Source: Flaviaestuariibacter sp. (GTDB lineage Bacteria > Bacteroidota > Bacteroidia > Chitinophagales > Chitinophagaceae). From it: a DNA stretch of 64,000 bases. The position numbers were made by a program, and so were the translations under genes. The stretch covers positions 62,001 to 126,000 of the forward strand of contig JAOQAI010000009.1 of assembly GCA_025963645.1 (NCBI GenBank), written 5' to 3'. Positions 27,189 through 64,000 of the stretch are shown one piece after another (the stretch's first letter is position 1; each line of letters starts with the position of its first letter). The notes beneath the pieces are model-generated. The model had not been told where the DNA came from. It ran no database searches and saw only the letters and a program-made list of their open reading frames with translations.

Positions 27189-27262
27189 TCGATTGACGAT
27201 TAGCGATTGTAGATTAAGGTTCAAAGGTAAGGCTTGCCAAATCTGCAATTGCCAATCTAAAA
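27189..27262. repeat. Inverted pair of 7-bp repeat tracts between ruvX and def
   Basis: The left arm reads GATTGAC-GATTAGC-GATTGTA-GATTAAG; the right arm reads AATCTGC-AATTGCC-AATCTAA-AATCG. Together they are an imperfect inverted pair with a strict 7-bp period. The ruvX stop lies in the right arm. Confidence 0.65.
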
Positions 27263-27667
27263 TCGTTGCATGTATTCCTGCAGCATCATCGTTGCCGCTA
27301 TCTCATCCACCAAACCCTTGTTCTGCCGCTGCTTTTTCTTCAGCCCCATTTGCAGCATGGCTTGTGAGGCCATTTTAGAGGTAAAGCGCTCGTCCACTTC
27401 TTTGATTGGAATGGCAGGAAACACCTTTTGCAGTTCGCCAATGAACTTCTTCACCAGCGGTGTGGCGTGGGTAGCGGTGTCGTCCATATTGGTGGGCATC
27501 CCTATCAGGATCAGTTCTACCCCTTCCCGCCCGATATATTCCTTTAAAAAGGCCATGAGCTTGGGCGTTTCTACGGTACACAGGCCGGTAGCGATGATCT
27601 GCAGCGGATCTGTTACTGCCAGACCGGTGCGTTTGCGGCCATAATCAATAGAAAGGATTCTCCCCAT
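27257..27667 (-). CDS. ruvX: Putative pre-16S rRNA nuclease / RuvX (YqgF)
   Basis: A 136-residue RNase H-fold protein of the YqgF family, implicated in 16S rRNA 5'-end maturation and historically described as a Holliday-junction resolvase. Motifs: ILSIDYGRKRTGLAVTD with the first Asp, LILIGMPTNMD, and KEVDERFTSKMA with the Asp/Glu pair; the C-terminus has DEIAATMMLQEYM. The start is ATG 27667, which begins two residues before the conserved ILSIDYG strand. The same frame stays open upstream through the 43-bp palindrome array, but that sequence is not protein-like. The stop lies in a 7-bp repeat tract. Confidence 0.93.
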   Translation of the reverse strand: MGRILSIDYGRKRTGLAVTDPLQIIATGLCTVETPKLMAFLKEYIGREGVELILIGMPTNMDDTATHATPLVKKFIGELQKVFPAIPIKEVDERFTSKMASQAMLQMGLKKKQRQNKGLVDEIAATMMLQEYMQRF

Positions 27668-27747
27668 AGCAGCAAAAATAGCGCTGGTTGACCATTGCAG
27701 TAGTTCATCAGTCCTAATTAGGGCAGGAAGTGCAGGCAAGAACCTTG

Positions 27748-28048
27748 GGATGCCTGCACCATTGGCGGGATATATTGTCGCATGAGACAGCAGCATTCCC
27801 CGCCCTGGTGGGATATACGGCTTCATGCGACAAGGCATATCGCCACTGTGGGGAAGTGCCTTGTCGCATGAGACAATGGCATCACCCGCGGCGGGGAGGT
27901 ATATTGTCGCATGCGACATACAGGGCCACCGGTGTGGCGGGGTATATTGTCTTGTGAGACAATATAGGTATCCATGGTGGCGGGATACCTTGTCGCATGC
28001 GACAATAGGGTCCGCTGCCGTGTCCGGGTGGCTTGTCTCATGCGGCAA
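27748..28048. repeat. Seven-unit 43-bp tandem array of palindromes
   Basis: Seven 16-bp dyads begin at 27775, 27818, 27861, 27904, 27947, 27990 and 28033, exactly 43 bp apart. The perfect form TTGTCGCATGCGACAA occurs at 27990; variants are TTGTCGCATGAGACAA (27861), TTGTCTTGTGAGACAA (27947) and TTGTCTCATGCGGCAA (28033). The seven 27-bp sequences preceding each dyad are related (consensus near GGCA-CACC-GGTGGCGGG-ATA) and are imperfect dyads themselves, for example GGTATCC...GGATACC. The array fills most of the 410-bp gap between the ruvX start and the ubiA-like stop. It is not a CRISPR: the repeat is short and palindromic and the spacers are homologous to one another. Confidence 0.9.
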
Positions 28049-28078: not shown

Positions 28079-29041
28079 CTAAAAAAGGGAAGGCTGTAAA
28101 AACAGGTCGGCGATGACAAACACAGCAAACACCACCGACGCAATGCCATTGGCGGTCATAAAGGCAAGGTTCACCCGGCGCAGGTCCTCGGGTTTTACAA
28201 TGGAATGCTGGTAGATCAGCATCCCGGTAAACACCAGCACACCTATCCAATAGAGCCATCCGAACCCGCCCCACCGTCCGGCAGCCACTACGCAAGCCGC
28301 GCTAAGCAGGTGCAAGACTTCTGAAATGCGCAGGGCTTTGGCTTTGCCAAAAGATGCGGGGATGGAGTAAAGCTGCTGCGACTGGTCAAAATCCACATCC
28401 TGCAAGGCATAGATAATATCGAACCCGCTCACCCAGAAGATGACGGCAAGGGAAAAGAGGATGGGCAGCCAGTGAAAGGCGCCGGTAACAGCCAGGTAAG
28501 CACCGATGGGCGCCAGCGACAACCCTAAGCCGAGTATCAAGTGGCAGAGCGGCGTAAAACGCTTGGTATAACTGTAACCCAGCACCACAGCAAGCGCTAC
28601 TGGTGACAGGTAAAAGCAGATGCGGTTGATGAAAAAGGTACAAGTGATAAACAAGACGCAACAGGCGATGGTGAAGCCTAATGCATTTTTTGGAGTGATG
28701 ATGCCTTTGGGGATTTCGCGGATGGCGGTGCGGGGATTGAGTATGTCGTATTTTCTATCTAAGTAGCGGTTAAATGCCATGGCAGCGGAGCGGGCGAAGA
28801 TCATGCAGGCGATAACTAACAGGAATCTAATAAATAGAATCTCAAAAGCAGATTGGCGCCCCCAGCCAATCGAATCGTTTAAACTCCATTGCCCACTTTT
28901 ATTAATCGGAAGATTCCAAAATGTTTGATAGGATAAATCCCTAGAGTAAAGCGCCAGAAAAAATCCAATCAACGCAAACGGCATCGCGAAAATGGTATGC
29001 GAGAACTTGATAAGCGAGAGATAATTTTTGACAACAGACAT
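28079..29041 (-). CDS. UbiA-family prenyltransferase, probable MqnP of futalosine menaquinone pathway
   Basis: A 320-residue integral membrane prenyltransferase with about nine hydrophobic helices. The two diphosphate-binding motifs are NRYLDRKYDILNPRTAIREI (NRxxDxxxD type, near residue 90) and FDIIYALQDVDFDQSQQLYS (DxxxD type, near residue 210). UbiA enzymes attach a polyprenyl chain to an aromatic acid. Because mqnA, the first enzyme of the futalosine route, occurs at 58.6 kb, this is most likely the MqnP-type prenyltransferase acting on a dihydroxynaphthoate precursor rather than 4-hydroxybenzoate; Bacteroidota generally make menaquinone. Its stop lies 31 bp from the last palindrome of the 43-bp array. 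One base separates it from the vapC-like stop upstream, so it may be coexpressed with the toxin pair. Confidence 0.85.
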   Translation of the reverse strand: MSVVKNYLSLIKFSHTIFAMPFALIGFFLALYSRDLSYQTFWNLPINKSGQWSLNDSIGWGRQSAFEILFIRFLLVIACMIFARSAAMAFNRYLDRKYDILNPRTAIREIPKGIITPKNALGFTIACCVLFITCTFFINRICFYLSPVALAVVLGYSYTKRFTPLCHLILGLGLSLAPIGAYLAVTGAFHWLPILFSLAVIFWVSGFDIIYALQDVDFDQSQQLYSIPASFGKAKALRISEVLHLLSAACVVAAGRWGGFGWLYWIGVLVFTGMLIYQHSIVKPEDLRRVNLAFMTANGIASVVFAVFVIADLFLQPSLF

Positions 29042-29042
29042 G

Positions 29043-29414
29043 TTAAGGTTCGTAAACTTCCAGGGGAAGGCTTTTAATTTGCCGGAACTGCTTGTCGGCA
29101 GAAATGAAGGGAAGGTCTAATGATATGGCAGTCGCGGCAACAATTGCATCGGGTAGTTTCAGGTTATATTGCTTTCTAATATTAATGGCTTCCTCTTTGA
29201 TAATTTCATCTAAATAGATAACCCTAAATTCCTTTAAAAAATTCCTGAAGCTTTTATCAATAGACGCTGACAAATTTTTATACCCTAAAAACTCGATTTC
29301 GCTAATGACTGAAATAAAAAGGCTTCGCTTCTGCAAGTACTCTGTCAGGGTCTGATGGCCAGAAACGATGTAAAGAAGAATATTGGTATCTACTAAATAA
29401 TTACCTCCATTCAT
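29043..29414 (-). CDS. PIN-domain ribonuclease toxin, VapC-like
   Basis: A 123-residue PIN-domain protein. The acidic residues expected for Mg2+-dependent RNase activity are present: Asp9 in YLVDTNILLY, the Glu in ISEIEFLGY, Asp in LPDAIVAATA and Asp in FISADKQF. Its start codon lies 14 bp inside the end of the small upstream gene, the typical coupling of antitoxin then toxin. Targets of VapC enzymes are usually tRNAs or rRNA loops. Complete length, so probably functional. It lies directly upstream of the ubiA-like gene. Confidence 0.85.
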   Translation of the reverse strand: MNGGNYLVDTNILLYIVSGHQTLTEYLQKRSLFISVISEIEFLGYKNLSASIDKSFRNFLKEFRVIYLDEIIKEEAINIRKQYNLKLPDAIVAATAISLDLPFISADKQFRQIKSLPLEVYEP

Positions 29415-29556
29415 TACGCAACCTTTTTTGAATTGCCTGGGGGTCTTCTTCTAATTTGATGATGCCACAATACTTCATAATATCTGCGCCCTTATTTACA
29501 TCGGCCTTATCCCGCCTTATCCGCTTGATCTTCGGTTCTTTTTTCTTCGCTTCCAT
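29401..29556 (-). CDS. Small basic protein, probable antitoxin of the PIN toxin
   Basis: A 51-residue reading frame beginning MEAKKKEPKIKRIRRDKADV and ending KRLRNEWR. It is strongly basic at the N-terminus (Lys/Arg-rich) and amphipathic in the C-terminal half (ADIMKYCGIIKLEEDPQAIQ), fitting a short antitoxin whose tail docks onto a PIN domain. It overlaps the toxin start by 14 bp. I do not recognise a DNA-binding family such as AbrB or RHH; assignment rests on position, size and overlap. Confidence 0.65.
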   Translation of the reverse strand: MEAKKKEPKIKRIRRDKADVNKGADIMKYCGIIKLEEDPQAIQKRLRNEWR

Positions 29557-35663: not shown

Positions 35664-36440
35664 ATGTCCCTCGACATCGCCGCCCTGCAAGCCGAAATCA
35701 CCCGCCAGCAGGTGATCATTGCCCTGCTGGTAGAAAAGAACCAGCAACTGGAACAGCAGCTGGCTTATGCCAATAGCCTGCTGGAAGCAACTACCTCCCC
35801 ATCTGTTGCGAATAACCATCAAAACAACATAGTAGAACCCGGTGCAATGTTGAACCAACTCACAAGCAACATTGCACCAACCCACGCAATGTTGAACCAA
35901 TCGAAAAGCAACATTGCTCATAGCGGTGCAAGTCCGAACGAAACCCAAGTCAACACATCGTCGAATGACGCAATGTTGAACCAAAGCCGGATCAACATTG
36001 CGCCGAATTTTTCAATGCCGACCCGGCTGCATAATGGCATTGCATTGCCGGTTTTGGGAGGCTTTCAATTATCCTCTACTCATGTGAAGCCTGCACCGCA
36101 GCGTTTTTTAAACCCGGCCCTGCCGGAAGACCGGGCAGAACTGGCAAAGCTGGCCGCCGCTGCCACTGTTAACGGGCTTTACCAGGTGCTGAGAAAGTAT
36201 TACAAGGGCCGCTGGACCGCCCTTCACTCCATGTCGCGCTTGCTCCACCACCTGCTGACCGAACCAAAGAATACCCAACGCCGCCTTGGCAGGGTGTTGG
36301 AGTTTTCGGACCGGGGCGTGTATATGCTGCTGCAAAACTGCATCAAACGAGGCCTTCTTCAAAAGACCGGCTACCAACAATATGCTCTTACGGAAAAGGC
36401 GCTGGAGTATGTGAGGGAAGCAGGGGAGGTTGATAGGTAA
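35664..36440 (+). CDS. Repeat-bearing protein with N-terminal coiled coil and C-terminal winged-helix-like domain
   Basis: A 258-residue protein of three parts. Residues 1-45 are a coiled-coil-like helix (ALQAEITRQQVIIALLVEKN then QQLEQQL). Residues ~47-130 are 14-residue tandem repeats, consensus A-M-L-N-Q-x-x-x-N-I-A-P-x-x: AMLNQLTSNIAPTH, AMLNQSKSNIAHSG, ASPNETQVNTSSND, AMLNQSRINIAPNF, with flanking degenerate copies. Residues ~150-258 look like a winged-helix DNA-binding or adaptor domain (GLYQVLRKYYKGRWTALHSM, RLGRVLEFSDRGVYMLLQNC, LTEKALEYVREA). I do not know a named family. It may be a DNA-binding regulator with a hypervariable linker. The stop lies in a 7-bp repeat tract. Confidence 0.7.
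   Translation: MSLDIAALQAEITRQQVIIALLVEKNQQLEQQLAYANSLLEATTSPSVANNHQNNIVEPGAMLNQLTSNIAPTHAMLNQSKSNIAHSGASPNETQVNTSSNDAMLNQSRINIAPNFSMPTRLHNGIALPVLGGFQLSSTHVKPAPQRFLNPALPEDRAELAKLAAAATVNGLYQVLRKYYKGRWTALHSMSRLLHHLLTEPKNTQRRLGRVLEFSDRGVYMLLQNCIKRGLLQKTGYQQYALTEKALEYVREAGEVDR
35844..36053. repeat. 42-bp in-frame tandem repeat with palindromic units
   Basis: Units begin at 35844, 35886, 35928, 35970 and 36012, each 42 bp, with a weak further copy at 35802. Three units carry GCAATGTTG near the start and CAACATTGC (or close) about 20 bp later, so each can form a hairpin. The unit is exactly 14 codons, preserving the frame. Confidence 0.85.
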
Positions 36441-63616: not shown

Positions 63617-64000
63617 GTGCCCGCAAGAGATGCAAAACTTCCCGCAGATGACCATTCTACCCGCCAACGTCATTTTTTGACGATAGAAGCTGATAATTTC
63701 GGAGAAAAACTCGTTATTGCGGGAAAAATTCCGGCTCTTGCGGGTGAAATAGTGACTGTTACGGGTTAAAAACTGGCTGCGGTGTGTGAAAATGCCTCTT
63801 ATTCTGGGCAAAAAATGACTCTTTGGGTAAACAAACGGTTTTTAGGCAGAATTGCCTCTTATTTCGGCAGAATAATGACTTAAATAGGGAGAAATGTCTC
63901 TATAATAAGCAGTAGTGGCTTGTAAGCGCAGAAAAGTGGTGTGCTAATGAGCAGAATAGTTACTAAATGGGGAGGAATAATCCCGCCAATAAAAAACCCT
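63617..64000. repeat. Degenerate ~21-bp tandem array running to the window edge
   Basis: From about 63617 the sequence repeats with a period of mostly 21 bp (19-23). Unit starts include 63721, 63742, 63763, 63784, 63806, 63826, 63845, 63866, 63887, 63908, 63928, 63951 and 63972. The pattern is approximately GGGnnnAAAnnnTGnCTCTT, for example GGCAGAATAATGACTTAAAT and GGGAGAAATGTCTCTATAAT. The clearest copies lie between 63720 and 63980. No coding sequence is convincing in it; the array continues beyond the window. Confidence 0.7.

Follow-up and report, generated by a model that had tools for sequence, protein, structure and literature searches.

Bacterial intergenic repeats are usually filed as mobile debris or as mRNA hairpins, and hairpins that stabilise, process or attenuate mRNA have been proposed for the REP/BIME sequences. 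Other arrangements of short sites include the neisserial intergenic mosaic elements with dRS3, in which a short palindrome alternates with a spacer in intergenic arrays, and the helically phased operator or nucleoid-protein arrays, in which twofold half-sites recur at a fixed step on one face of the DNA. Large, tandemly reiterated REP clusters are described in PMC3733652, where the flanking DNA of the reiterated REPs varies in length.

The array considered here lies in a 64,000-nucleotide stretch of a Flaviaestuariibacter genome (the window) and consists of seven 43-bp units at 27748-28048 (array 1), each made of a 27-bp spacer and a 16-bp dyad; a second array of the same kind (array 2) stands elsewhere in that genome. 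Relative to the neisserial mosaic elements, these arrays are distinguished by a 16-bp palindrome, by fixed 27-bp spacers that are related to one another, and by their presence at two loci only. With a CRISPR array they share the alternation of repeat and spacer at a fixed step, but their repeat is 16 bp long, array 1 matches no Rfam family, and their spacers are mutually related (mean identity 0.48 versus 0.276 after shuffling), so that the locus is, as the original prediction had it, unlike a CRISPR. Phased operator and nucleoid-protein arrays are similar in having twofold half-sites at a fixed step on one DNA face; they differ in that the arrays here have only a putative binder and show no excess of scattered single sites. 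Judged by titles and abstract openings, the literature searched yielded no name for this array or for a phased class with steps of 21 or 43 bp.

The likeness to BIME/REP clusters is broader, as both are intergenic, palindromic, tandem, lineage-specific and hairpin-forming. It is nonetheless very improbable that the dyads are REP or REPIN sequences moved by a RAYT (Y1 transposase), for although short intergenic palindromes in tandem recall the clusters of PMC3733652, the REPs there have variable flanking DNA and the spacing here is exact. Furthermore, the arrays occupy two loci instead of many, single units are not in excess, the 63%-complete assembly contains no match to Y1_Tnp (PF01797), although a RAYT gene may lie in the missing 37%, and the GTAG/CGTC tag is not regular, being absent from array 1 and scattered in array 2 (3 and 1 occurrences, both strands).

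Methods

The array's own genome (G000) was searched as a 2.57-Mb assembly that is 63% complete. A survey of noncoding stretches, defined as lying outside ORFs of 150 aa, was made for strong local periodicity in five genomes of the genus (422 kb of G000, 400 kb each of G003, G015 and G010, and 298 kb of G011) and in two outgroups (400 kb of G034, which belongs to another genus, and 200 kb of E. coli K-12). G003, G015 and G034 were sampled evenly; the stretches of G000, G010 and G011 came from contigs already met, so that both 43-bp arrays (G000) and the array next to ruvX (G011) are among them. The survey detects exact steps only and thus supports a preference for certain steps while being silent on indels.

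Results and Discussion

Structure and Setting of the Array

The original prediction described seven dyads exactly 43 bp apart with no indel, and this was confirmed: the dyads of array 1 start at 27775 + 43n, and all six intervals are exactly 43 bp with zero indels. Without strand assignment, the dyads lie at 27775-27790 (TTGTCGCATGAGACAG), 27818-27833 (CGGCTTCATGCGACAA), 27861-27876 (TTGTCGCATGAGACAA), 27904-27919 (TTGTCGCATGCGACAT), 27947-27962 (TTGTCTTGTGAGACAA), 27990-28005 (TTGTCGCATGCGACAA) and 28033-28048 (TTGTCTCATGCGGCAA). The half-site is TTGTCKCA, inverted about the dyad centre, and the half-site pattern that had been seen to persist through base divergence is real; its perfect palindromic form, TTGTCGCATGCGACAA, is realised in the sixth dyad and is present in array 2 too. 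In the second dyad, at 27818, the left half (CGGCTTCA) is degenerate and breaks the symmetry. At 10.5 bp per turn the step corresponds to about 4.1 helical turns, in agreement with the predicted spacing near four turns. In a periodicity survey of 442 kb of the genome, 4 kb of which were counted twice, array 1 ranked fifth among 17 matches (z 10.9). Its self-similarity is about equal at lags of 43, 86 and 129 (0.56, 0.60 and 0.59), which indicates that adjacent units are not recent duplicates.

Array 1 is followed in the direction of transcription by ruvX (27257-27667, minus strand; Pfam) and preceded by a gene for a UbiA-family prenyltransferase (28079-29041, minus strand; Pfam). The placement beside ruvX was therefore as predicted, and "mqnP-like" for the other neighbour is a label of the prediction only. 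A gene with a PIN domain lies at window positions 29043-29556 on the minus strand with a small ORF before it, possibly as a toxin-antitoxin pair.

A 263-aa ORF (27257-28048) joins ruvX to the whole of the array. This longer frame is probably not the true gene but a false extension, since in the relatives the alignment begins in the same start region. Stop codons in the six frames of array 1 number 8 against a shuffle mean of 17.8, and none of 1000 shuffles had as few; array 2 has 11 against a mean of 14.8 and shows no clear deficit (127 of 1000 shuffles as low). A protein-coding repeat was ruled out, because in both arrays the period of 43 bp is not a multiple of three, the argument on which the prediction had also relied.

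A Second Array in the Same Genome

Array 2 lies on contig C15 (L014:7711-7967) and has six dyads, with all five steps exactly 43 bp. It was found by its dyad sequence and not by its spacing, so that its step is an independent confirmation of the 43-bp period. With three mismatches or fewer, the dyad occurs at 13 places in the 63%-complete genome, eight of them inside the two arrays and five outside, and the latter are no excess relative to the 12 places matched by a reversed-pattern control. A covariance model of the array (R1), for which 150 of 462 candidates were scored, detects just arrays 1 and 2 in the genome. The prediction of further arrays with the same step thus held for one array, in the same genome, and failed for the relatives searched.

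Both arrays are situated between co-directional genes or ORFs and have the same orientation relative to them, an observation that is weak with two cases only. The two ORFs flanking array 2 have no Pfam match. The protein family of the ORF at L014:7998-8708, also without a Pfam match, has homologues in G000, G010, G011 and G016, with 10 matches in G011, and is present in four of the 18 genus genomes.

Conservation Within the Unit

Dyads are better conserved than spacers, with mean pairwise identities of 0.766 and 0.482, respectively, compared to 0.276 for shuffled sequences. The 27-bp intervals had been predicted to be mutually related, which the spacer value against the shuffled one (0.48 versus 0.28) bears out, and to be imperfectly dyadic themselves, which holds only modestly. 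As a set, the spacers have similarity to one another's reverse complement above shuffling (0.35-0.50 for every spacer against the reversed others); taken singly, two of the 12 reach an identity of 0.74 with their own reverse complement and the other 10 are low (0.22-0.44). The spacer at 27920-27946 (plus strand) has 81% identity to one spacer of array 2, with CACCGGTGTGGCGGGGTATA common to both.

The two halves of the same dyad are no more alike than halves taken from different dyads (identity 0.760 versus 0.765), so pairing is not what is conserved. In keeping with this, the covariation score of the dyad stem was reached by 182 of 500 shuffles, which is no covariation beyond chance, and the covariation within dyads that the prediction had looked for did not appear. 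Conservation of the unit points to constraint on the half-sites or to simple common descent; selection for pairing inside the dyad is not what it suggests. We counted the independent variation of the halves in favour of binding sites because the half-sites of a protein vary in this way. Of the options that the prediction had named (an operator or nucleoid-protein array, a cruciform or an sRNA cluster), the data favour phased binding sites over structures selected for base-pairing; independent halves are, however, also expected from plain drift from a common ancestor.

These data bear on the proposal that the arrays are RNA elements, transcribed between co-directional genes and forming hairpins that stabilise, process or attenuate mRNA, which we judge quite unlikely. 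The location of both arrays between co-directional genes or ORFs in the same relative orientation would suit such a role, and the folding of array 1 clearly surpasses that of shuffled sequences on both strands (z -8.7 and -9.5), although folding of this strength is what any palindrome array would give. The arms flanking the dyads do covary (score reached by two of 500 shuffles), as does the whole 19-pair stem (five of 500), but this is at least partly due to one spacer of array 2 that looks inverted. Against the proposal, the dyad stem itself is without covariation, its inner pair fits in only six of 13 units, and the array matches no Rfam family, an Rfam search of the window having returned only a tRNA.

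The spacer in question, spacer 3 of array 2, matches four of its partners at 0.63-0.70 when reversed and at 0.37-0.48 as is, and over all 11 partners it scores 0.498 reversed and 0.431 forward. At least this one spacer is likely inverted. The inversion is likely and not certain because the gain from turning spacers is small, with the mean spacer identity rising from 0.482 with all forward to 0.497 with the best orientation assignment, and because all spacers show some reversed similarity. That assignment also turns the spacer of array 1 at 27963-27989 to the minus strand by a small margin, and this case is ambiguous (0.471 forward, 0.444 reversed).

Inverted spacers would be expected if the dyads were recombination sites, with a site-specific recombinase or template switching on palindromes flipping or exchanging the spacers, and recombination at palindromes would preserve the 43-bp step. 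This explanation appears distinctly improbable to us: the apparent inversion of spacer 3 in array 2, and the possible one of spacer 5 in array 1, would fit it, yet just one of the 12 spacers is a fairly clear inversion, and orienting the spacers gains as little as noted above.

Distribution in Other Genomes and at the Orthologous Locus

The covariance model R1, run with stricter filters and 111 candidates scored per genome, had no match in 57 relatives, and it matched nothing up to an E value of 1 in 42 loci comprising 37 survey stretches of G010 and G011 and five ubiA-ruvX loci. With one mismatch or fewer, the dyad was absent from the 17 other genomes of the genus and occurred in three of 393 other genomes of the family, where 12 genomes had control matches, so that there is no excess. 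Two intact dyads at a gap of 16-46 bases were found in 16 stretches among 84,980 species genomes, none of them at the 43-bp step, with a pattern that recognises array 1 at one place and array 2 nowhere, so that arrays such as array 2 would escape it. The same pattern found seven stretches in viral contigs, none at a 43-bp step; two exact patterns had no match in viral contigs, and blastn of array 1 against phages and plasmids returned nothing. As far as these searches reach, the array family appears private to this genome, and its absence from the relatives searched means that cross-species conservation does not support a function.

The dyad-pair pattern also returned clusters of the palindrome TGTCNCATGNGACA at other spacings, for which the pattern itself selects. 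These lie in L031, L042 and L045 (Nannocystis), in L032, L034 and L038 (Brocadiaceae, Loosdrechtia), and in L046, a viral contig.

At the locus itself, ubiA stands beside ruvX in 17 of 18 genus genomes, the array's own included, with the remaining locus (L063) having no ubiA match. The array is in none of the 16 relatives that have ubiA beside ruvX, contrary to conservation at orthologous loci. The gap between the two genes, measured between alignment ends, is 5-163 bp in 14 of these 16 relatives, 330 bp in G011, 402 bp in G010 and 414 bp in the array's own genome. In G011 it contains four units at exact 22-bp steps and in G010 pairs of units at 21 bp, neither with a recognisable relation to the 43-bp array; the presence of repeats in this gap in two relatives as well is no more than suggestive.

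Proposed Phased Binding Sites and the Persistence of the Step

Two loci of the genome thus hold tandem 43-bp units, each with one twofold-symmetric site and a 27-bp spacer. Our tentative preference, held somewhat short of an even chance, is that they represent a lineage-specific intergenic repeat family carrying helically phased, putative binding sites for a dimeric protein. A homodimeric DNA-binding protein would sit on every dyad, and with a constant step of about four turns all dimers would come to lie on one face of the DNA, where they might bind cooperatively or bend and compact the stretch. The role may be like that of a small nucleoid or boundary element and not that of an operator of one gene, and any effect would be on the flanking genes or on chromosome structure. 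The spacer would seem to be tolerated in either orientation while its length stays 27 bp.

A step that is exact and near a whole number of turns, as in 11 of 11 intervals here, is a feature of helically phased arrays. The stronger conservation of dyads than of spacers also counts for this reading, as do the absence of indels at such divergence, the reversed matches of spacer 3 of array 2, and the recurrence of steps of 21, 22, 41-43 and 63 bp in unrelated arrays of relatives. Phased sites are opposed by the lack of an excess of isolated dyads, in which the arrays differ from a regulon operator. A scattered regulon with these dyads as its operator was accordingly rejected as a candidate, since single dyads elsewhere do not exceed the reversed-pattern control in the 63% of the genome that is assembled.

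The main rival explanation, a substantial possibility although more doubtful than not, is a selfish or neutral minisatellite or miniature element, in which a palindromic unit was amplified, copied to a second locus and left to drift, with the step simply inherited. Occurrence at two loci in one genome only is consistent with such an origin, as are the differences in the content of the ubiA-ruvX gap between relatives. A 22-bp-step element of G015 provides a parallel. Among 71 candidates, of which 40 were scored, it has at least 42 matches that are, the query itself aside, 75-96% identical to the query, and it was not matched in G000, G010 or G011. The 30 loci examined (L212-L241) have in common about three units with a conserved TTACTCCGTAT-like motif every 22 bp, and an A-rich conserved tail. 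They lie in all gene contexts (nine between convergent, 14 between co-directional and six between divergent ORFs, and one flanked by an ORF on a single side), which is the pattern that an interspersed repeat should show. Like the 43-bp arrays, the element is intergenic and repeats a conserved motif at a constant step close to an integral number of helical turns; it differs in being present in about 40 or more copies, in consisting of direct repeats without a 16-bp palindrome, in its step of 22, and in the indels that are common between its copies. Most gaps in the G015 family do not correspond to whole units, a point in favour of the minisatellite; only four of 59 are exactly 22 bp, which indicates that strict phase is not kept in that family, and two copies (L217, L224) are without exactly 22 bp.

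The minisatellite is more difficult to reconcile with the combination of divergence and exact length in the arrays. The spacers have drifted to an identity of 0.48 and 149 of 516 positions in 12 units differ from the unit consensus, yet there is no indel in 11 intervals. The noncoding repeat family of G015 has 59 gaps per 642 substitutions in 30 copies, and at this ratio about 14 indels would be expected for both arrays and about six for the 65 differences of array 2, a rough estimate in that ragged ends are counted among the G015 gaps, inverted spacers were left unturned when the consensus was made, and any exchange between units would raise the number of substitutions. The near equality of the lags of 43, 86 and 129 likewise speaks against neighbouring units being recent duplicates.

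Periodic Noncoding Arrays in Relatives

In the survey, periods of at least 18 in G000, G010, G011 and G015 fell on 21, 22, 41-43 or 63 bp in 22 of 30 matches, a set of periods picked after the matches were seen and a count that excludes 23 further matches with periods of 14 or 16 in G010, G011 and G015. The share was seven of seven in G000, six of seven in G010, four of six in G011 and five of 10 in G015, and 19 of 27 remain when the three arrays known beforehand are subtracted. The corresponding figures were zero of two in G003, zero of four in G034 and one of two in E. coli, where the single 21-bp match sits in the small gene gfcA. Four of the five genus genomes sampled thus have periodic noncoding stretches mostly at these steps, with species-specific sequences, part of which may be coding. 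For steps divisible by three coding is possible, and the steps 22, 41 and 43 themselves speak against it; a 21-bp match in G010 (L172) translates without a stop as a coiled-coil-like stretch, and in G000, where there are five 21-bp arrays, three overlap with ORFs of at least 110 aa.

Over all noncoding pairs at lags of 12-99, lag 21 was the strongest in G000, G011 and G010 and the second strongest in G015, with lower values in G003 (z 5.6), G034 (4.9) and E. coli (3.5). Short unmasked genes probably account for the wide elevation of multiples of three. Lag 43 is absent from the 12 strongest noncoding lags of the array's own genome, and the 43-bp array has no 21-bp sub-period among its six strongest lags, so that the 43-bp arrays are linked to the 21-bp arrays by analogy. 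G011 has two arrays with a 42-bp step (L152:11879-12080 and L155:10547-10840), one carrying dyads (TAGGANNTTCCTA) at steps of 43, 42, 42 and 42 and the other inverted half-sites (AGGAGTA...TACTCCT).

A minisatellite by itself leaves the recurrence of steps near 21 and 42 bp unexplained. A broader reading, which we regard as rather unlikely, is that part of the genus, and perhaps other bacteria, keeps a general system of helically phased intergenic arrays (21, 22, 41-43 and 63 bp) in which the step stays the same as the sequences are replaced from species to species. An array in L030 (1881-2175), from a MAG named Thermoanaerobaculum and thus as another genus, has lags of 42, 63 and 21 (0.67, 0.66 and 0.63) with TGTC-type dyads, and as it has the same kind of dyad and was found by the dyad and not by the step, it fits such a system. 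Were the broader reading true, the conserved feature would be the spacing on the DNA face. This would hint at a nucleoid or DNA-looping protein able to read phase while its half-site changes rapidly, with the 43-bp palindromic arrays as the clearest dimeric form of this phase-reading system. Here, the step outlasts the sequence, the halves of the palindrome vary independently, and unrelated arrays of relatives fall near integral helical turns. If phase is selected, a DNA-organising protein could be fished with a 300-bp probe, and the arrays would offer a direct test of how bacterial repeats persist.

Several degenerate arrays with a 21-bp step, each with its own sequence, were noted in the genome of the 43-bp arrays. 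One at window positions 63620-63960 (L109:3620-3960) is noncoding, with no ORF of 110 aa over it; the others are L110:5884-6160 and three that overlap ORFs of at least 110 aa and may be coding (L100:10014-10205, L097:19106-19430 and L099:13147-13420). Inside a 258-aa ORF of the window (35664-36440, plus strand; a weak MarR_2 match below the cut-off), the stretch at 35846-36015 is a 42-bp-step repeat with an identity of 0.62 at lag 42 and inverted half-sites (GCAATGTTG...CAACATTGC).
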